64,000 nucleotides of DNA from Woeseia sp. (GTDB lineage: Bacteria; Pseudomonadota; Gammaproteobacteria; Steroidobacterales; Woeseiaceae), in contig JAJFKW010000001.1 of NCBI GenBank assembly GCA_021773015.1, positions 3,021,305 through 3,085,304 of the forward strand. The letters are read 5' to 3'. Position 1 is the stretch's first letter. The number at the start of each line of letters is the position of its first letter. The position numbers were made by a program, and so were the translations under genes. This document shows, piece after piece, positions 19,837 to 28,826 of this stretch. Below the pieces are notes generated by a model. The model ran no database searches and was not told where the DNA came from. It worked only from the letters and a program-made list of their open reading frames with translations.

Positions 19837-21018
19837 CTAGGCGTAGCGTAGGGCGATACGTTTATAGGCTTCGCGAAACGGAATGCCCTCTTCGGTAACG
19901 AGTTTGTTTGCCTGTTCGGCGGCGTCCAAAGACTTGTCCATGTGTATTTGGCTTGCATCAAACTCCAGACTTGAGACGAGGTAAGTCATAATGTCGACGC
20001 TATCGAGTGCCAAATCGATACTTCGGAAAACAGGAAATTTTAATCGTTGCAAGTCTCTTTGATAACCGGATGGAAGCTTTGCTGTGATCATCAAACATTC
20101 GTCCAGACAAGCTTGCGCCGTTGGTGCGGCTGCTCGCACTAACTCCAGAACATCGGGGTTTCTTTTCTGCGGCATAATTGACGAGCCGGTTGTTACGTCG
20201 TCTGCAAGCGAGATAAAGCCGAATTCCTGGGTGTAAAAAAGCAGCAAGTCCGCAGCCAAGCGCGACAAGTCGTTAAGTAATAGCGCGATTTCAAAAAGTA
20301 GTCCGGCTTCAGCTTTGCCGCGCGACAGCTGCACCGTTGTCACTGGGCTTTGCGTAGTCTCGAACCCGAGGCTGGCTGTTGTTTCATCTCGGTCAATTGA
20401 CAATCCAGGTGTGCCATAACCCGCCGCACTACCAAGCGGATTCTGACTAATTCGTTGCCTGTTGGTCTGCAGGCTTTGTATTGCGTCTGCAAACAGTTGT
20501 CGGAAGCCGTCGGCCCAAAGTTCAACTGAAGATGGCATTGCTTGCTGCATATGCGTATAGCCAGGTAGGCCAATGCCGCCTTGTTTTTTGGAGAGGTCTA
20601 ACAGGCTGCCACTAAGTTCGCGGACGCTTTCCTGTAGCGCGTCGCTCGCGTCCAGTAAGTACAATCGAAGTGCACACAAGACTTGATCGTTACGTGATCT
20701 TCCCAAATGTATACGACCGCCCGTCTCGCCGATGAGGTCCGTAAGACGAGATTCAAGCGCGGTATGTGCGTCCTCGTCTTGTAATTCGATTTGCCATAGG
20801 TCGGATGCGAATTGATTGCCGAGTGTCGCAAGTCCATCGCATATTTTAGTGCAGTCTTCGCTACTGAGTAATCCTTGCTTTGCCAGCATTTTCGCGTGAG
20901 CAGTGGATCCTTTTACATCATATTCCACCAATCGCGCGTCGATCTTGTAGTCCTCGCCCGCCGTGTAACGCAATACTCGCTCATCTAGCGCTAATCCCTT
21001 GTCCCAAAGCCGACTCAC
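19837..21018 (-). CDS. argH: Argininosuccinate lyase, C-terminally short form
   Basis: Last step of arginine synthesis, releasing fumarate from argininosuccinate. The family signature TTGSSIMPQKRNPDVLELVRA, the active-site HTALESRLTDLIGETGGRIHLGRSRNDQV and YTHMQQAMPSS are intact. At 393 residues it is about 60 shorter than E. coli ArgH: it stops at GIPFREAYKRIALRYA, losing the terminal helical segment. No frameshifted remainder lies beyond the stop, so it appears a natural short form. Overlaps argB by 4 bases and ends the arginine operon. Confidence 0.92.
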   Translation of the reverse strand: MSRLWDKGLALDERVLRYTAGEDYKIDARLVEYDVKGSTAHAKMLAKQGLLSSEDCTKICDGLATLGNQFASDLWQIELQDEDAHTALESRLTDLIGETGGRIHLGRSRNDQVLCALRLYLLDASDALQESVRELSGSLLDLSKKQGGIGLPGYTHMQQAMPSSVELWADGFRQLFADAIQSLQTNRQRISQNPLGSAAGYGTPGLSIDRDETTASLGFETTQSPVTTVQLSRGKAEAGLLFEIALLLNDLSRLAADLLLFYTQEFGFISLADDVTTGSSIMPQKRNPDVLELVRAAAPTAQACLDECLMITAKLPSGYQRDLQRLKFPVFRSIDLALDSVDIMTYLVSSLEFDASQIHMDKSLDAAEQANKLVTEEGIPFREAYKRIALRYA

Positions 21019-21953
21019 GTGTCAGCTCCGGTAGATGCTTGCTCGGCGGGGGTTAATGCGGCGATATCGTTGACCACCAGGGTGCCCGTGCCTTCGTTGG
21101 TAAATACCTCCAGCAGAATGCTGTCTGCGATGTTGTAAGAAATAACGTGGACACGATTGACGCCGTTGGCAAGTGCTTGCTCTATTGCCATGGCCTTGGG
21201 CAACATGCCGTCGGCAAGTTTGTCATCGTCGCGTAACTTCTTGAGCTCGCGGCGGTCGACATACGAAATGAGAGATTGCGGATCTGCAATGTTTTCCAAG
21301 ATCCCTGGCGTGCCCGTGGCGAGTATTAGTTTTTCCGCGCTGAGCTCAGCGGCGATGGCCGCCGCGACGGTATCCGCATTGATGTTAAGAATGATGCCTG
21401 CTGAGTCACAGGAGAGTGGACTGACGACTGGCATTAGGCCGTTGTCGAGCTGCTTTCGAAGTACGTCGGCGTCGACGGCATCGATGTCACCCACGTAACC
21501 GTAGTCAACGGTTTGGCCATCGGAACTTTCAACCGGGGGTCTGCGGTGGGCGCGAATTAAGCCTGCATCCACTCCGCTGATGCCGACAGCCGGAATTTCA
21601 AGGTCACGGCAAGCGGCAAGTATTCGTGTATTAATCTGGCCGTTCAATACCATAGTCGCAACGTCGAGCGATGACTGATCAGTGACTCGCCGACCGTCCA
21701 CGAAGGTTGTATCAAGCCCCAGCGCGCCCGCGAGTGCGGTTGACTGCGGTCCACCACCGTGCACCAGAACAACGCGAATGCCGACCTGATGCAAAATGCC
21801 GACTTGCTCCATCAGGTTTCGCGTGTCGCCAATGTCTGCAAAAACTTCGCCGCCGACTTTCAATACAAAAACCTTGTTTTTAAAGAGCCGGATATAGGGT
21901 GCTGCATGCTTTAGTGCAGCAACGACAATTGCTCTTTGCTTGATGGCCGTCAC
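21015..21953 (-). CDS. argB: N-acylglutamate kinase
   Basis: Phosphorylates N-acetyl- (or here perhaps N-succinyl-) glutamate. The 312-residue protein has VLKVGGEVFAD (residues about 30-40), LVHGGGPQSTALA and VNINADTVAAAIA-like LNINADTVAAAIAAELSAEKLILATGTPGI, all amino-acid-kinase signatures. It is not fused to an acetyltransferase domain, unlike the ArgA-B fusions of Xanthomonas relatives. It overlaps argF' upstream and argH downstream by 4 bases each. Confidence 0.93.
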   Translation of the reverse strand: MTAIKQRAIVVAALKHAAPYIRLFKNKVFVLKVGGEVFADIGDTRNLMEQVGILHQVGIRVVLVHGGGPQSTALAGALGLDTTFVDGRRVTDQSSLDVATMVLNGQINTRILAACRDLEIPAVGISGVDAGLIRAHRRPPVESSDGQTVDYGYVGDIDAVDADVLRKQLDNGLMPVVSPLSCDSAGIILNINADTVAAAIAAELSAEKLILATGTPGILENIADPQSLISYVDRRELKKLRDDDKLADGMLPKAMAIEQALANGVNRVHVISYNIADSILLEVFTNEGTGTLVVNDIAALTPAEQASTGADT

Positions 21954-22957
21954 TTTTGGATACGCATCATCTGATGCAGTACGGCCATTTGGGCCAACAT
22001 ACGATTCCGCGCTTCAGGGATTACCACGCTTCTAGGGCCGTCTAGAACTGAATCGGCGACCACAACTCCACGTCTCACTGGCAGGCAATGCATAAATCGG
22101 CAATCCTTCCGAGCGTTATCAAACCAAGAATCGTCAACACACCAATCATCAAGTTCGTTACGCAATTCTTGATCGGCGATTTTGTCACCATAATGTGCAG
22201 TCGATGACCAAGATTTCGCATAAATAACATGTGCGTCCTGCATTGCTTCGCGGCGATCGATGGATTCACGGATAGAACCGCCGGCGGCGGCGGCCGCGTC
22301 GCGTGCTTTGTGCATGATTGGCTCTGGCAATTCAAATCCATGCGGACGCAATACCGTGATATCCATTCCGCGTTGGGCTGCCATCTGCAGTGTTGATGCC
22401 GGAACCGCAAGCGGCAGCGCTCTTGGGTGGAAGGCCCAACTCAATACAAACTTCCCGTCGTTACTGGGAATGCCCAGATCATTCATCGTCTTCCAGTCCG
22501 CGAGATTCTGGCAAGGATGGCCCATTGCGGATTCCATATTGATATAAGGCGTATCAATCAACTCTGTAAGACTGGAAAATTCGACCTCATCCAAATCGTG
22601 CTGCAGGTTTTTGCGCTCAGCAAACGCGCGTATGCCAATTGCGTCACCGTAGGAAGCAATCACCGGTACCGCCTCGCGTATGTGTTCTGCAGCGATACCG
22701 TCCATGACGATACCGGGGCGCGATTCCAGGCCATGAATCGACATATCCGGTGAAATTACGAATGAGCCGCCGCCCAAGCGCGTCATGGCTGCTTGGAATG
22801 ACGCCAATGTTCGCAACGATGGGCTGAGAAAAAGCAACGACAGAACTTTGCCTTTCAATGCTTCCGGTTCGGGCGATCGATCAAGGCGAGTTGCGAGCTC
22901 AATCAATGCCGAGATTTCGTCCTTTGAAAAATCCGCTATGTCGTTGAATGCCTGCAT
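21950..22957 (-). CDS. argF': N-acylornithine carbamoyltransferase, probably N-succinylornithine-specific
   Basis: Transfers carbamoyl to an N-acylated ornithine, as in Xanthomonas (acetyl) and Bacteroides (succinyl), rather than to ornithine. The 335-residue protein resembles those enzymes through SPSLRTLASFQAAM, GIVMDGIAAEHI, SMEAMGHPCQNLAD-like ESAMGHPCQNLADW, SWAFHPRALPLAVP, YAKSW and FMHCLPVRRGVVV. Aligned by eye, Ala90 falls at the position of Glu92 in Xanthomonas AOTCase and Pro90 in Bacteroides SOTCase, so the acetyl-specific glutamate is absent. Embedded in the operon by a 4-base overlap with argB. Confidence 0.88.
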   Translation of the reverse strand: MQAFNDIADFSKDEISALIELATRLDRSPEPEALKGKVLSLLFLSPSLRTLASFQAAMTRLGGGSFVISPDMSIHGLESRPGIVMDGIAAEHIREAVPVIASYGDAIGIRAFAERKNLQHDLDEVEFSSLTELIDTPYINMESAMGHPCQNLADWKTMNDLGIPSNDGKFVLSWAFHPRALPLAVPASTLQMAAQRGMDITVLRPHGFELPEPIMHKARDAAAAAGGSIRESIDRREAMQDAHVIYAKSWSSTAHYGDKIADQELRNELDDWCVDDSWFDNARKDCRFMHCLPVRRGVVVADSVLDGPRSVVIPEARNRMLAQMAVLHQMMRIQK

Positions 22958-22973
22958 TTTGGCTCCATTATTT

Positions 22974-24161
22974 TTAAGTTAGTGGCACGATGTTGCCGAG
23001 CGCCTCGGAGAGGCGAGAGACATTCTGCGATTGCAGAACCAAAGGCGGCAATAGTCGCAGTATCTCCGGGTCGGCGCTGGTGCCAGTGAGAATATCGTGA
23101 TCGAGTAGTGCGGCATGGACTTCGGACGCTGGGCGGTCACACTTGAGCCCTAGCAATAGACCCATACCCTGAATAGACGTGATTGGTCCGACAACGCAGT
23201 GCTCACGAATTTCAGCTTCGCGCGCTCGGACATTCTTGAGCAGTTCATCCTCATGTATTGCGTCGATGACCGCGACCGTTGCGGCTGCCGCTAGTGGGCC
23301 ACCGCCGAACGTTGAGCCGAGTTGTCCTTTCTTAATATTCGCCGCTATTCTATCGGTAACTAACAACGCCCCGCAAGGTATGCCGCCAGCGATGGACTTG
23401 GCTGCCGTAATCATGTCCGGTTCAATACCGTAGAATTGCACGGCAAAGAACTGGCCCGATCTACCCATGCCCGATTGCACTTCATCAGCAATCAACAGGC
23501 AGTCACACGCACGCGTTGCTTGGCGCAGTGCATTTACGAATTCGGGCATTAAATCAAACGCCCCAGCAACGCCCTGTATTGGTTCAAAAATGACTGCTGC
23601 AACATCTGCATCAATCATTTCGTGAGCGGCCTCAATATCGTTGCGGGGAATAAACTCGACTTCAAACGGCAACTGTGGAAATCCGTACCAAGTTTCTGAG
23701 TTCCATGTCACTGCTGCGGCTGCCGCAGTTCGTCCATGAAATCCGTGCGTAATCGCCAATATCTTTTGTCGTTGAGTGTTCATGCAGGCGACGCGAAGGG
23801 CGTTTTCGTTCGCCTCAGCGCCGCTATTCACAAAAAATGCTCGTTGAATATTTTCCGGTGCCACCGCAGTTAGTTTTTCCGCGGCGCTGGCACGAATCTC
23901 GAGCGCAACAGCGTTACTTTGAAACAATAGGCGTGCGCTTTGATCGGCAATAGCAGCGGTCAATTTGGGATGGCCGTAGCCCAGTGCTGCAACCGCGTGC
24001 CCTCCATACAAATCAAGAATATGCCGACCGTCGGTAGTGACGATGTCGCACCCGGATGCACGTTTAGGGACAATCGGTAGTTGTGGATAGACTGCGACAG
24101 TAGCCGCCGCCTCGCGCGTTCGCGGGTCGAGCAACCTGTCTTTGACAATTTCGTTGACCAT
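22974..24161 (-). CDS. argD: N-acylornithine aminotransferase
   Basis: PLP-dependent transaminase making N-acylornithine from the semialdehyde. The 395-residue protein shows the PLP site AKSIAGGIPCGALLV (Lys in AAKSIAGG), VNSGAEANENALRVA, HGFHGRTAAAAA and IADEVQSGMGRSG. ArgD enzymes commonly accept succinylated substrates too. Located 16 bases upstream of argF' in the operon. Confidence 0.93.
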   Translation of the reverse strand: MVNEIVKDRLLDPRTREAAATVAVYPQLPIVPKRASGCDIVTTDGRHILDLYGGHAVAALGYGHPKLTAAIADQSARLLFQSNAVALEIRASAAEKLTAVAPENIQRAFFVNSGAEANENALRVACMNTQRQKILAITHGFHGRTAAAAAVTWNSETWYGFPQLPFEVEFIPRNDIEAAHEMIDADVAAVIFEPIQGVAGAFDLMPEFVNALRQATRACDCLLIADEVQSGMGRSGQFFAVQFYGIEPDMITAAKSIAGGIPCGALLVTDRIAANIKKGQLGSTFGGGPLAAAATVAVIDAIHEDELLKNVRAREAEIREHCVVGPITSIQGMGLLLGLKCDRPASEVHAALLDHDILTGTSADPEILRLLPPLVLQSQNVSRLSEALGNIVPLT

Positions 24162-24174
24162 GATCTGCGCCGCG

Positions 24175-25230
24175 TTAGGTCCAGGCCGGTGCCGGTAATC
24201 TCAGGCCATCCGAATCTGCAAGCGACCACAAACGATTCATCCATTGCACTGAGCCGCCTGCGGCACCCTTCACCAGGTTGTCAATAGCGCACATGATTAC
24301 CAGGGAGCCATCTTTGACATCGATGCCAATGTCGGCGTAGTTGCTTGCCACTACATCCTTAAGTATTGGTGCGGCATCTAGGATTCTGACAAACTCACAA
24401 TTTTCGTAGTCATCGCGAAATATACTCAGCAATTTGTCTCTGGTGAGGCCGCGCACACATGACGCCTGAACGGTTGCGTAAATGCCGCGCGCGAAAGGAC
24501 CGGAGTGCGGAACAAAATTGACTCGCGCGTTTGCTCCCGTTGCCGTTTTGATCAGTTGCTGTATCTCCGGCGCATGGCGATGTGCGAGTGGTTTGTATGC
24601 GTATAAATTGCTGTTACGAATCGGGTGATGTGTGCCAATCTGTGGCGTTCGACCTGAGCCAGTGCTGCCGGTCGTTGCCGAGGCAAATATGTCACCATTA
24701 ACGACGCCGTGATTATACAGTGGTACCGTTGCGAGCAGTATAGCCGTCGCAAAACAGCCGGGGTGTCCGGCGTGCTGTCGCGTATTTACCTTTTGGTGTT
24801 CGGGTACTGCGCACACAAAGTCATTAAGGAGTTCGCGGGCACTGTGTTTTCCGCCATATACTGCCTCAAAGTCGTCGGCGTTTGCATAGCGAAAATCTGC
24901 CGAAGCATCGACAACGTGGACTTCCGAATTCAAACTCTTTGCCAAATTCAGCGCATTTCTCACTAGGGTTGCAGACTTGCCATGTGGCGCTGCTGAAAAT
25001 ATTGCCAGTTTGTTGCCAGGCCGAATTTTCTCCGCTAGCTGCTCGAAATTACAAAATCTCTCATCAGGGTAGGTCGAGCGCAAATGTGGAAAAATGTCAG
25101 CGATCAGCTTGCCGCTGTGGCTTCCCGACACAGCCGCAACGAGTTCAAGGTGACTGTGCATGGACAAAAGGCGTAATAATTCACCGCTAACGTATCCGGT
25201 GGCACCAAGTATCACGGTAGCAATTTTCAT
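24175..25230 (-). CDS. argC: N-acyl-gamma-glutamyl-phosphate reductase
   Basis: NADPH-dependent reduction of N-acylglutamyl phosphate. The 351-residue protein starts with the nucleotide-binding ATVILGATGYVSGELLRLL and has the catalytic cysteine in NTRQHAGHPGCFATAILLA. VPHSGPFARGIYATVQA is also characteristic. Its ATG overlaps the stop of the P-loop gene by 4 bases (25227-25230). Confidence 0.94.
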   Translation of the reverse strand: MKIATVILGATGYVSGELLRLLSMHSHLELVAAVSGSHSGKLIADIFPHLRSTYPDERFCNFEQLAEKIRPGNKLAIFSAAPHGKSATLVRNALNLAKSLNSEVHVVDASADFRYANADDFEAVYGGKHSARELLNDFVCAVPEHQKVNTRQHAGHPGCFATAILLATVPLYNHGVVNGDIFASATTGSTGSGRTPQIGTHHPIRNSNLYAYKPLAHRHAPEIQQLIKTATGANARVNFVPHSGPFARGIYATVQASCVRGLTRDKLLSIFRDDYENCEFVRILDAAPILKDVVASNYADIGIDVKDGSLVIMCAIDNLVKGAAGGSVQWMNRLWSLADSDGLRLPAPAWT

Positions 25231-26282
25231 GACGTTGCGCCCCGTACAGCATCAGCGACGACGTCACCTAGTGCAACACCATTGCTCAATGCATTGATTG
25301 CCGGCAATCCCAAGCGCTGCATAATCTGCTCGGTCCCAACTGAGTTGTCGGTTGCCGGACCGGTCACCACGGTTGGCTCTACACCGTATTCATCGCGTAG
25401 AATTTTTGTACCACCCCAAGCGGAAACCGGATCATTCGCGCACAGAACAACGCATGAAAATGCATTACGGATTTCTTCATCAGCAAGAATCGCGTCGACC
25501 CCGTAGGCACCCAAAAGCCCGTCGCCCATTTCCAGAACAATTACGTCGGGTTGTTGTGCGGCAAGGCTTGTCAACAATGTGCGCGTTAGTGCGGGCCCGT
25601 TTTCGGCGGTGGTTGTGACAATGCCTAAATCGGAAAAAATCATCGAGGTGCTGGCGCCAGCATCTTCCATTGCGAGCACGTCCCTACGTAGAGAAACCCC
25701 GGTCGCCTTGCACGCCGCAACCTCGAGACCTTTGTTGCGAAGCCGGCTCACAATCGCGCACGCCGCCGCCGTTTTACCAGAGTCCATGCAGGTGCCAGCT
25801 AGTGCAACCACAGGTACCTTGGCAGTCACTAGTTTCGGTGAGCTGCCCAACGTGCTACTGCCAGCTCTGGCCGGAATTCCGATGCGTTCGCCGAGGTATG
25901 GAAAGGTCAAAACTGTGCCGATTACTTCACAGTCGAAAGGTGCCCCGACGTCGGGATTCGCCGAATCGCAAATCCCGAGTACTCCACCGACGTTGAGAAT
26001 CTGCACTTTGCTGCCGACGTTCAACACGTCAGGCAGATGGCCGGAATAACCACGCAGTGCTTTGCGATGTCCCAGTGCACCGACAACGACATCGCCCTGG
26101 TTTACCGTTGCCATCCGCCCGCTGGTCAATTCCAGCTGGTTGTAACGCGTTTTGTTGTTTAGAACTTTCGCGGCGACCAGCACGCCCTCCTCACAAGGAA
26201 TATCGCTAGAGACGCGCAACTCATGGCCCAAGTTGCTGTGCTGGGCAACGGACGCAACCTTATCGACAAAGATACTTTTCAT
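25227..26282 (-). CDS. P-loop protein of unknown function in the arginine operon (DUF1611/BioD-like fold)
   Basis: A 351-residue protein that I cannot name. I start at ATG 26282, one base after the argG stop; the frame extends 35 codons into argG without sense. The N-terminal half (1-150) looks beta-rich with many valines and glycines (DVVVGALGHRK, VQILNVGGVLGIC). From residue 158 a P-loop domain begins: VVALAGTCMDSGKTAAACAI (Lys170), then CKATG, VIVLEMGDGLLG and VVLCANDPVSAWGG. The P-loop region resembles dethiobiotin synthetase and DUF1611 proteins; DUF1611 includes the D-glutamate N-acyltransferase DgcN. Tight coupling to argG and argC implies a role in arginine synthesis. Confidence 0.75.
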   Translation of the reverse strand: MKSIFVDKVASVAQHSNLGHELRVSSDIPCEEGVLVAAKVLNNKTRYNQLELTSGRMATVNQGDVVVGALGHRKALRGYSGHLPDVLNVGSKVQILNVGGVLGICDSANPDVGAPFDCEVIGTVLTFPYLGERIGIPARAGSSTLGSSPKLVTAKVPVVALAGTCMDSGKTAAACAIVSRLRNKGLEVAACKATGVSLRRDVLAMEDAGASTSMIFSDLGIVTTTAENGPALTRTLLTSLAAQQPDVIVLEMGDGLLGAYGVDAILADEEIRNAFSCVVLCANDPVSAWGGTKILRDEYGVEPTVVTGPATDNSVGTEQIMQRLGLPAINALSNGVALGDVVADAVRGATS

Positions 26283-26283
26283 T

Positions 26284-27495
26284 TCAGGAATCTTGTGCAG
26301 CACGGGTTTGTAACGACCCTGCCAATGACATGATGCGGCTGTAGCCGAGGGCATCTGCGGCACTCCATTCGCCTGCCGCTTCGCCATACACTCCGCTGGT
26401 CGCTGCCAACAGTGAATACGCCGAATCGACGCCGGTGATGAACAGGCTCGCAGGCCTTAGGTCAAATCGGATCTTACCGCTGACTCTCTTTTGCGATGAG
26501 TCGAGAAGTGCTTCGACATCTCGGCAAGCCAAATCAAGTTGTTTGCCTTCGTGAATTAGATCGCCGTATATCGCTGCGACGTTTTCTTTTATTCGTGACT
26601 GTTGTGCGCTGAGCACTAATTTTTCCAATTCTCTATGCGCGACGATTAGTATTTCTGCTGCTGGTGCCTCGAACGCTACGCGACCTTTTGTGCCGAGGAC
26701 CGTGTCACCTAAATGGATTCCTCGACCAATTGCATATTGCCCACCGAGTTTCTCGAGTTTCTCAATAAGTGCCACGGGGCTCATTTGTTCTTCGTCGAGC
26801 GCAACAGGTATGCCGTTTTCAAAAGTGACTGAGTGCGAAGAAAGATCGCGTGGATTGTTCAATGCATCTTTCGACAGTACCCAAGCGGATTCGGGCAGTG
26901 ACTGTTGCGAACTAAGTGTTTCCTGCCCACCAATGGTGATACCCCACAAGCCGCGATTTACCGAATAAGCCGACCCTTGCGCAGGTAAGGGCATAGCGTG
27001 TTTTTTCAGGAAGTCTAGTTGCTCTTCTCGGACCCAACTGTTGTCACGCACCGGTGCAAGAATCTCAAGTTTCGGATTAAGTGTGCGCAAGGCCACCTCG
27101 AAGCGCACCTGATCATTGCCGGCAGCCGTGCAACCATGCGCGACGGTCGATGCCCCAAGCTTATTCGCAAGTCGTGCTAGTTCCGCGGCCTGAATCCCTC
27201 GCTCCGCGCCAACGCAAAGCGGGTATGTTTGGCCGCGCCGAACGTTGCCTGCAATCAGATAGCGGATAACGGATTCGAAATAGTCCCGTTTTGCATCGAG
27301 AATAATATGCTCAATGGCGCCAAGCGCGGCGGATCGACGGGTCAAGTCATCGGCCATTGCGCTGTCTATGCCGCCGGTGTCAACGGTAACTGTAATAACC
27401 GGCCGACCAACGTTGTCCTTCAACCACGGAACGCAAAATGACGTGTCGAGGCCGCCAGAGAACGCAAGAATTATTGGGCTGGTTTTGGTACTCAC
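26284..27495 (-). CDS. argG: Argininosuccinate synthase
   Basis: ATP-dependent joining of citrulline and aspartate. The 403-residue protein has the ATP-binding AFSGGLDTSFCVPWLKD (residues 12-28), AHGCTAAGNDQVRFE and GIHLGDTVLGTKGRVAFEAPAAEILI. Second gene of the operon, between argR and the P-loop gene. In an N-acylated pathway it would act after deacylation of N-acylcitrulline. Confidence 0.96.
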   Translation of the reverse strand: MSTKTSPIILAFSGGLDTSFCVPWLKDNVGRPVITVTVDTGGIDSAMADDLTRRSAALGAIEHIILDAKRDYFESVIRYLIAGNVRRGQTYPLCVGAERGIQAAELARLANKLGASTVAHGCTAAGNDQVRFEVALRTLNPKLEILAPVRDNSWVREEQLDFLKKHAMPLPAQGSAYSVNRGLWGITIGGQETLSSQQSLPESAWVLSKDALNNPRDLSSHSVTFENGIPVALDEEQMSPVALIEKLEKLGGQYAIGRGIHLGDTVLGTKGRVAFEAPAAEILIVAHRELEKLVLSAQQSRIKENVAAIYGDLIHEGKQLDLACRDVEALLDSSQKRVSGKIRFDLRPASLFITGVDSAYSLLAATSGVYGEAAGEWSAADALGYSRIMSLAGSLQTRAAQDS

Positions 27496-27520
27496 GAAAA
27501 CTCCAACACGCGTAAATAGA

Positions 27521-27982
27521 TTAACTGTGAGAAACGGCGCTTTCTATTCGCGCAAGTAAATTTCTTTGGGCTGCGGCGCTGGTGGTGGCCGTAAACACTG
27601 TGTCGTCGCCGCCGACGTTACCAACAATTTCCGGCCAAGCACTTCGATCCAGAGCTAGTGCTACTCGCTGTGCAGCGCCAATCGCAGTTTTGATGACCAA
27701 GAGATTCGGTCCGGCCGGTCGAAGGTCTCTTAGTAAATCCGCAACTTCTGCGATTTCGTTTGCAGCCTCGGAATTTGCAGGTTCAAGCTCGTATCCGGTC
27801 GTAGTTTTGATTGCACCAAGCTCCTTTAAGTCCCGACTGACGCTCGACTGAGTCGCATCGAAACCTTTTTCGAGTAGCGCAGAAACTACGAATTTTTGTG
27901 TGGCTGCCGGGCCACTACGCAACAGCTCACGAATGGCTTCGCGACGATCAGCTTGATTGTCTATGGAGTTTGGCATAAGCAT
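27521..27982 (-). CDS. argR: Arginine repressor
   Basis: A 153-residue hexameric repressor/activator. The N-terminal winged helix contains DATQSSVSRDLKELGAIKT and the C-terminal arginine-binding domain shows GNVGGDDTVFTAT. It is the first gene of the arginine operon, 25 bases before argG, a set-up for autoregulation. The ATG at 27982 or the one two codons later (27976) may be used; no strong ribosome site distinguishes them. Confidence 0.94.
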   Translation of the reverse strand: MLMPNSIDNQADRREAIRELLRSGPAATQKFVVSALLEKGFDATQSSVSRDLKELGAIKTTTGYELEPANSEAANEIAEVADLLRDLRPAGPNLLVIKTAIGAAQRVALALDRSAWPEIVGNVGGDDTVFTATTSAAAQRNLLARIESAVSHS

Positions 27983-28000
27983 TCTGCATAAATATGCGCA
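27983..28000. promoter_or_regulatory. Candidate ARG box at the head of the arginine operon
   Basis: TCTGCATAAATATGCGCA is a palindrome (TGCAT-AAAT-ATGCG) close to the ArgR consensus TGAAT-W4-ATTCA, with one or two mismatches per arm. It directly precedes the argR start. The next candidate half-sites (28011-28028, around GTGCATATTCGG) have poor spacing, so I do not count them. Confidence 0.4.
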
Positions 28001-28157
28001 TAACTAAACCACAATGTGCATATTCGGTCAAGAACTTTTGACTCAGATCGTGAACACTATTCGGCACCATCACGCTATAGCGTGCTCGGAATAGGGTTTA
28101 TAGGGTGGGATTGGTAACATCCGCCGCTCATTGGGACTGGGAGTGGAAGTGGAATTT

Positions 28158-28826
28158 ATGGATACGGTTGAGGTAGCAAGTGGGGACGAGTTCGACGGCT
28201 GCGTTATCTGGCTGCACGGACTTGGCGCCGATGGACACGATTTTGAGCCGATCGTGCCGCAATTGACTTTGCCGGAGGAATTGCGGCTGAGGTTCGTATT
28301 TCCGCACGCGCCAGTGCGTCCGGTCACCATAAACAATGGTGTCGCTATGCGCGCTTGGTATGACATATTTTCACTTGATCGCGATGGACCAGTGGACGAC
28401 AAAGGCATTCGTCAGAGTGCCTCAATATTGGAGGCATTGATTGAACGCGAGCATGCGCGCGGAATTGCTTTCGAAAATATCGTTGTTGCTGGATTTTCCC
28501 AAGGCGGAGCCATTGCTTCACACTGTGCGCTTCGGTTCCGCCATCGCCTCGGTGGGCTGATGGCGTTATCCACTTATTTGCCGTTGCAATCGACTTTGAA
28601 TGCAGAGATCAAGCAGGGCGCGCAATCGGAAAGCAAGGATTTGCCGATATTTGTGGCGCACGGAGAATTCGATCCGGTGTTGCCAATGCAACTTGGACTC
28701 GCATCACGAGACGCGATGATCGCGCTGGGTTTCGCAGTGGAGTGGTTCGTTTACCCGATGCAACATGCGGTGTGTCCACAAGAGATCGACGATATTAGTA
28801 TTTGGCTTCGCAGCTGCTTTCAATAA
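28158..28826 (+). CDS. Alpha/beta-hydrolase, carboxylesterase/acyl-protein thioesterase family
   Basis: A 222-residue esterase of the PF02230 family. I start at ATG 28158 (MDTVEVAS); a TTG 9 codons upstream is possible. Signatures are VIWLHGLGADGHDFEPIVPQL, the nucleophile elbow GFSQGGAIA (Ser near residue 112), VAHGEFDPVLP (Asp) and a C-terminal His in PMQHAVCPQEID. Substrate unknown. It converges on the NRDE gene. Confidence 0.9.
   Translation: MDTVEVASGDEFDGCVIWLHGLGADGHDFEPIVPQLTLPEELRLRFVFPHAPVRPVTINNGVAMRAWYDIFSLDRDGPVDDKGIRQSASILEALIEREHARGIAFENIVVAGFSQGGAIASHCALRFRHRLGGLMALSTYLPLQSTLNAEIKQGAQSESKDLPIFVAHGEFDPVLPMQLGLASRDAMIALGFAVEWFVYPMQHAVCPQEIDDISIWLRSCFQ

Follow-up and report, generated by a model that had tools for sequence, protein, structure and literature searches.

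The window, a stretch of 64,000 nucleotides, contains a tight operon of eight co-directional genes in the order argR-argG-X-argC-argD-argF'-argB-argH, all on the minus strand, where X denotes an open frame and conserved gene (25227..26282) for a P-loop protein of 351 amino acids. It is preceded by genes for the arginine repressor (argR; 27521..27982; PF02863 and PF01316 above cut-off) and argininosuccinate synthase (argG; 26284..27495; TIGR00032, 280.4 bits, above cut-off). Following X are genes for N-acyl-gamma-glutamyl-phosphate reductase (argC; 24175..25230; TIGR01850, 286.7 bits, above cut-off), N-acylornithine aminotransferase (argD; 22974..24161; PF00202 above cut-off, and TIGR00707 at 330.6 bits, below its cut-off), N-acylornithine carbamoyltransferase (argF'; 21950..22957; NF003384, 321 bits, above cut-off), a stand-alone N-acylglutamate kinase lacking a NAT domain (argB; 21015..21953; TIGR00761, 212.7 bits, above cut-off; AA_kinase as its only Pfam domain), and an argininosuccinate lyase of 393 amino acids with a short C-terminus (argH; 19837..21018; TIGR00838, 309.7 bits, above cut-off; ASL_C2 partial). 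The argB gene overlaps both argF' and argH by four bases. A promoter/terminator scan of positions 27400-28200 found none.

The first-pass annotation had placed X in the arginine operon, one base after argG and overlapping argC by four, without naming its strand, and had remarked on the absence of argA, argJ, and argE. These observations agree with the coordinates, in which a single base (26283) separates argG from X and the last four bases of X are shared with argC, and with gene-by-gene family matches, which reveal none of the three missing genes in the operon. The source was judged to be Woeseiaceae-like because the best 80 named relatives, of 426 in all, belong to Woeseiaceae, to Woeseia, and to gammaproteobacterial or proteobacterial MAGs without further classification. 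The ArgH proteins of Woeseiales-type X operons have approximately 393-407 residues; those of the NAGS-kinase operons described below mostly have 431-449 (two frames are overlong), and that of locus L172 has 453.

Motifs, family membership, and predicted fold of X

The motifs AGTCMDSGKT, CKATG, and EMGDGLLG are present in the translation of X, as first noted, and the statement that no standard arginine enzyme has this sequence is upheld, with no curated Pfam or NCBIfam family scoring above its cut-off. In Pfam, MobB reached 21.1 bits (cut-off 26.6) and DUF1611 (PF07755) 15.1 bits (cut-off 25); the four NCBIfam matches all lie far below cut-off, the best being mobB at 26.2 bits. A phmmer search against the PDB gave no match at E≤1. 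No NAT/GNAT domain (PF00583, PF04768, TIGR01890) or ArgJ domain (PF01960) was matched by X, and no BioD family model is among its Pfam and NCBIfam matches, its context being an arginine operon and not biotin genes. Nor was there a match to the DgcN equivalog NF041892 (E≤0.1) or to DUF1611_N (PF17396; E≤1), a domain that scores 89 bits in the DgcN-like protein of the same genome.

The key residues of X are the Walker A motif (G163-T171), K192, D201, and E251. In a wider alignment of 46 rows, from which L064 and L140 were excluded by hand owing to odd frames (47 references are listed), the residues G163, G169, K170, T171, K192, G195, D201, and E251 are invariant, paralogues included; DUF1611 matches at E≤0.01 occur in 22 of the 46 members, row P0001 not being one of these. 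The best match of the 46-row profile among PDB sequences was Mycobacterium tuberculosis BioD (3fgn; E 1e-4), where Walker A (GT...GKT) and the following K..TG are aligned, the BioD P-loop and K..TG lysine thus being present in X. Profile comparison with the DgcN-like protein of the same genome was weak (probability 0.4% with 17 rows; 8.9% over 37 columns with 46 rows).

The AlphaFold model of X based upon the 46-row alignment (pLDDT 95.0, pTM 0.91) supersedes a poor model from 17 similar rows (pLDDT 75.8). It predicts a nearly all-beta N-terminal part (approximately residues 1-150), followed by a BioD/DUF1611-type P-loop domain (approximately 155-350). VIA-align, applied to the Foldseek list and with Z values within 1 taken as ties, scored DUF1611 proteins 2g0t (Z 17.3; 183 aligned, 2.9 Å) and 2obn (16.7), BioD 3of5 (16.4), CTP synthase 1s1m (16.4), and DgcN 7xrj (15.8); by Foldseek E-value, BioD comes first and the SRP GTPases next. 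Structure prediction, proposed in the first-pass annotation as a check, thus recovered a DUF1611/DgcN/BioD-type fold, and on this confident model the P-loop domain is predicted to share the fold of BioD, CTP synthase, and DUF1611 (DgcN). Since the Z values for DUF1611, BioD, and CTP synthase are near ties, the predicted fold does not separate an acyltransferase from an ATP ligase, and it offers no choice between DUF1611 and BioD. The original likening of the P-loop half to BioD and DUF1611 therefore holds at the level of predicted fold (Z 15.8-17.3) and fails by the DUF1611 and DgcN sequence cut-offs.

The same genome encodes, on C4 (L069:7736-9864), a DUF1611 DgcN-like protein (NF041892, 153 bits, below the cut-off of 480) adjoining an enolase-superfamily protein, that is, a DgcN-DgcA-like pair. 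DgcN has been placed in a route from D-glutamate to L-glutamate in the available text of PMC10845958 and PMC12363236; X was ruled out as the DgcN of that route because this separate pair exists. Paralogues approximately 30% identical to X (L052-L066, L175, L230) often follow an M20 peptidase gene, and in many loci a flavin-reductase-like gene lies before them (M20 was identified by Pfam in L066 and L055, flavin reductase by Pfam in L066, and the rest by eye). An ABC exporter gene comes after the paralogue in a second group (L178, L183, L177, L179); it was identified by Pfam in L178 and L183 and by eye in the others. The approximately 30% identical paralogues were ruled out as arginine enzymes: NAGS scores above its cut-off in 12/12 paralogue-only Gammaproteobacteria, these being the members searched among 14 paralogue-type genomes (left out were G182, with 19 bits, and G322, with 35 bits and lying at the end of a contig), and ArgJ is found in 3/3 others.

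Distribution of X and its alternation with the NAGS-kinase fusion

Orthologues of X (at least 439 bits) are found in 37 of 60 related genomes, its own included; the next best matches in these 60 score at most 124 bits and represent separate paralogues. Of 80 loci taken from named contigs, 73 have X between argG and argC, and in 76 argC comes directly after it. The remaining four have argD next (two loci), no annotated neighbor (one), or no X frame picked (one). The overlap with argC is exactly four bases in 59 of the 76 measured loci; distances were taken from longest-frame starts, so that other values partly reflect the choice of start.

Outside the order, more distant forms (43-48% identical) in genomes G098, G291, and G176 also have argG and argC as neighbors. 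The arg genes of G098 and G176 are clustered in a different order, and in G291 the contig carries just three arg genes, argG-X-argC. All three have a kinase-only ArgB and no ArgJ. In a tree of 46 homologues, the 19 arg-linked rows all fall to the same side of one branch (support 97/95); long branches in other parts of the tree prompted a warning from the program. Genome G585, a member of another class, possesses an island argR-X-argC-argB (L229:6089-9739), has no ArgJ match, and carries a canonical OTC (above cut-off) elsewhere, flanked by frames resembling argG and argH. In the tree, the X of G585 clusters with that of G045, a member of the order (99/86), and horizontal transfer is likely. 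The separation of argR-X-argC-argB from the OTC places X with the glutamate-side steps of the pathway, and the canonical nature of that OTC means that X is not bound to a SOTCase. A plasmid search yielded eight records with relatives, all below 31% identity.

Two operon types were recognized among the relatives: the X type, with a stand-alone ArgB of approximately 310 residues, versus a NAGS-kinase type. The ten loci read of the latter contain argF', argG, an M20 argE, a kinase-synthase fusion of approximately 440 residues, argC, and argH; one of these loci is truncated by the contig, argH was not seen in one, and for a few it takes the argE profile to make the argE frame clear. X occupies the place next to argG where the NAGS-kinase operon has its M20 argE. 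A NAGS model search indicated a kinase-only ArgB in 37/37 X genomes and the fusion in 11/60 genomes (ten long frames, plus G054, where it is cut by the contig end beside its argE), none of which has an X orthologue. All 48 genomes in which an ArgB kinase was matched therefore carry either X or the fusion, and none carries both. The cut-off of this model is set for E. coli-type ArgA and is passed in 0/60 genomes; a NAT domain was confirmed in all five fusions scanned out of ten, and is absent from two further X-type ArgBs. With the argE profile, the same 11 fusion genomes score at least 480 bits, whereas none of the 37 X genomes exceeds 158 bits. The other 12 of the 60 genomes (G011, G021, G024, G025, G027, G028, G030, G033, G036, G044, G048, and G057) have no X orthologue, NAGS fusion, or ArgB kinase match, and may be arginine auxotrophs or incomplete MAGs.

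ArgJ was matched in one of the 60 genomes, by 49 residues at a contig end of X genome G014 (G014:C24:20-169), a piece representing contamination or a remnant; the genome under study has no ArgJ match. In this genome the NAGS model matched nothing beyond the ArgB kinase and a single unlinked GNAT of 150 residues (21.8 bits). Weak matches (at most 35 bits) to the NAT part of the model occur in 14 of 37 X genomes, and likewise in G291 (32 bits); the other 23, single-contig G006 among them, have no GNAT match to it. No arg genes were seen by eye within 2-3 kb of the weak GNAT frames in G000, G013, and G003. An unlinked GNAT too distant for the NAGS model might still be the true synthase.

The argC genes of the two operon types are 26-30% identical. 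Because the types differ throughout, they were probably exchanged as entire operons, and the contrast of 37 against 11 would then reflect few independent events; G098, G176, G291, and G585 provide independent support for the role of X. The survey suggested in the first-pass annotation thus revealed that X alternates with the NAGS fusion and is accompanied by SOTCase-type ArgF', with ArgJ in 1/60 genomes. A canonical argA or argJ together with argE elsewhere in the genome, and a family with no link to N-acylornithine pathways, had been named as the outcome that would speak against it; the search turned up no such combination.

Carbamoyltransferase residues and the deacylation step

In the X. 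campestris numbering, AOTCases possess E92, N185, and K302, and SOTCases A/S/P/V/Q, P, and V/I/E at these positions, according to the available text of a review (PMC4581275); GapMind, as far as PMC7311316 could be consulted, likewise cites the residue-92 rule. The numbering was fixed by aligning ArgF' to wild-type and mutant X. campestris AOTCase. ArgF' of the window has A90, P182, and V299, that is A/P/V, the published N-succinylornithine (SOTCase) signature at positions 92, 185, and 302. From 105 loci, 11 without an ArgF match and three duplicates were subtracted, leaving 91 distinct sequences. The 82 from X operons read A/P/V (71), A/P/A (5), V/P/E (2), and P/P/E (1), with three partly read, whereas the nine from NAGS-kinase operons read E/N/K (8) and E/N/Q (1). 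Position 92 is A, P, or V in 82/82 X-operon sequences and E in none, and position 185 is P in 79-80 of the 80 read there; the A at the third position in five X operons lies outside the published V/I/E set. The carbamoyltransferases encoded beside X are accordingly predicted to be SOTCases, and the acyl group is therefore probably succinyl. NCBIfam model NF003384 calls the window ArgF', with all three SOTCase residues, an N-acetylornithine carbamoyltransferase, a label on SOTCase-type proteins that is likely an annotation error of wider reach.

Ten M20 matches were found in the genome, five of them weak and partial (22-27 bits). The five strong ones comprise DapE (NF009557, 547 bits, above cut-off), three proteins with signal-peptide-like N-termini (judged by eye), and one dipeptidase-like protein (sub-threshold). 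The argE profile detected DapE alone, at 64 bits, and no AstE/AspA desuccinylase match was found in this genome. DapE is the best candidate for a desuccinylase of N-succinylcitrulline; this putative role parallels that of BT3549 of Bacteroides, described in the consulted part of PMC7311316 as a distant relative of succinyl-diaminopimelate desuccinylase implicated by fitness data.

Proposed role of X and its alternatives

Since X alternates with NAGS and moves with argC and argB, it most likely supplies N-acylglutamate to ArgB. We consider it probable that X is a non-GNAT, non-homologous replacement of NAGS, which N-acylates L-glutamate, most likely with succinyl, in a succinylated arginine route. 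The idea of a glutamate N-acyltransferase, perhaps for succinyl, put forward in the first-pass annotation, gains support from this alternation, from the travel of X with argC and argB without ArgJ, and from the predicted DUF1611/DgcN/BioD-type fold, while the SOTCase signature of the adjoining carbamoyltransferase favors succinyl. In such a route, X would convert L-glutamate to N-succinylglutamate, using succinyl-CoA, or succinate and ATP, as the acyl donor; ArgB would phosphorylate the product, ArgC would reduce it, and ArgD would aminate the result to N-succinylornithine. ArgF', as a SOTCase rather than an AOTCase, would then form N-succinylcitrulline; a desuccinylase outside the operon, with DapE as best candidate, would remove the succinyl moiety, and arginine would be completed by ArgG and ArgH.

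By analogy, a transferase acting with succinyl-CoA is slightly favored over an ATP ligase, because DgcN, though distantly related, is the characterized relative acting on glutamate; DgcN is reportedly acetyl-CoA-dependent. Succinate plus ATP would instead match the chemistry usual for the BioD/CTP-synthase fold, and the BioD loop and lysine that match Walker A and K..TG of X bind and activate ATP. It is conceivable, if rather doubtful, that X represents the first BioD/CTP-synthase-type P-loop NTPase to serve as an acylglutamate synthase, an ATP-dependent ligase that would phosphorylate free succinate and join it to L-glutamate without acyl-CoA, the DapE of lysine synthesis being reused downstream.

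The nature of the acyl group could be otherwise if X transferred acetyl and the SOTCase-like residues had drifted without a change of substrate. DgcN, the named DUF1611 protein with a structure, is labelled an N-acetyltransferase, the NCBIfam name of ArgF' (above cut-off) is acetyl-specific, and five X operons have the non-listed A at position 302. The discriminating positions nevertheless shift together, with 82/82 sequences in the succinyl set at position 92 through different residues in separate lineages, P at 185 in 79-80/80, and E at 92 in no X operon, and we regard an acetyl-transferring synthase as unlikely. A deacylase, the other function that had been suggested for X, is disfavored still more. 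Were X to act on N-acylcitrulline or N-acylornithine, with an unlinked GNAT making N-acylglutamate, one would understand why X genomes have no high-scoring ArgE-type deacetylase, why X adjoins argG at the site of the M20 argE in the other operon type, and why 14/37 X genomes have weak GNAT matches. X is predicted, however, to be a BioD/DUF1611-type P-loop NTPase, and we know of no hydrolase with this fold; it alternates with the NAT domain and co-travels with argC and argB; the NAGS model detects no GNAT in 23/37 X genomes; and a desuccinylase, DapE, is present in the genome. A deacylase was thus ruled out as the main reading and is very improbable. Equally improbable is an accessory or regulatory NTPase, not acting on glutamate, for instance one that senses a nucleotide or arginine as a partner of ArgC/ArgB. 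The Walker A P-loop, the sub-threshold likeness to MobB, an accessory nucleotide-binding protein, and the close coupling to argC are consistent with it, but the first step would be left without a recognized enzyme in 37/37 genomes, and an accessory protein is not expected to alternate with a NAGS domain.

As a putative glutamate-acylating enzyme, X may be compared with several known systems. It resembles DUF1611 (PF07755) and DgcN, the latter named a D-glutamate N-acetyltransferase (7xrj), in the fold of the P-loop domain (Z 15.8-17.3), and differs in scoring below both cut-offs, in lacking DUF1611_N, in its all-beta N-terminal part, and in sitting with arg genes instead of an enolase-superfamily DgcA-like gene. 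With BioD (dethiobiotin synthetase) it shares the P-loop and K..TG (3fgn, E 1e-4) and the fold (Z 16.4), whereas the sequence alignment spans approximately 50 residues, an extra N-terminal domain is present, and there is no biotin gene context. The combination of a NAGS-kinase fusion with AOTCase and ArgE, an arrangement known from Xanthomonas, serves this first step in related genomes; its kinase is fused to a NAT domain, its carbamoyltransferase residues are of acetyl type, and its operon includes argE, three features missing from the X operons that were read.

The first step of arginine synthesis has been reinvented repeatedly. In the LysW system, an ATP-using ligase acts on glutamate. According to the available text of PMC4490483, this RimK-like ligase gives a precedent for protection of the glutamate amino group by a ligase and not by an acyl-CoA transferase; it works with the carrier protein LysW, whereas X has a predicted BioD-type P-loop fold. 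Stand-alone synthases described in the parts consulted of PMC4490483 and PMC3827942 carry GNAT-related domains, and in the former the glutamate-succinylating enzyme was, in 2015, called unidentified. A later candidate, BT3761 of Bacteroides, comes from the succinylated pathway of Bacteroidetes (BT3761, BT3717, BT3549), which, as portrayed in the accessible text of PMC7311316, likewise combines a succinyl-type carbamoyltransferase with a proposed N-succinylglutamate synthase and has a distant DapE relative as desuccinylase candidate. The available text of PMC5317091 describes Cabys_1732, which BT3761 resembles, as an isoform of ArgA. Among titles and the opening lines of abstracts, subscription papers and preprints lying outside the search, no prior description of the X family was found, and the word "arginine" is absent from two Woeseiales papers searched by word.

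If the proposed role of X is correct, a P-loop enzyme would constitute a new structural solution to a known step, and a succinylated arginine route would exist in Gammaproteobacteria. It would also correct annotations in which the carbamoyltransferase of X operons is called acetyl-specific, and would explain the arginine gap in a lineage that is common in marine sediments (PMC7082342, available text).
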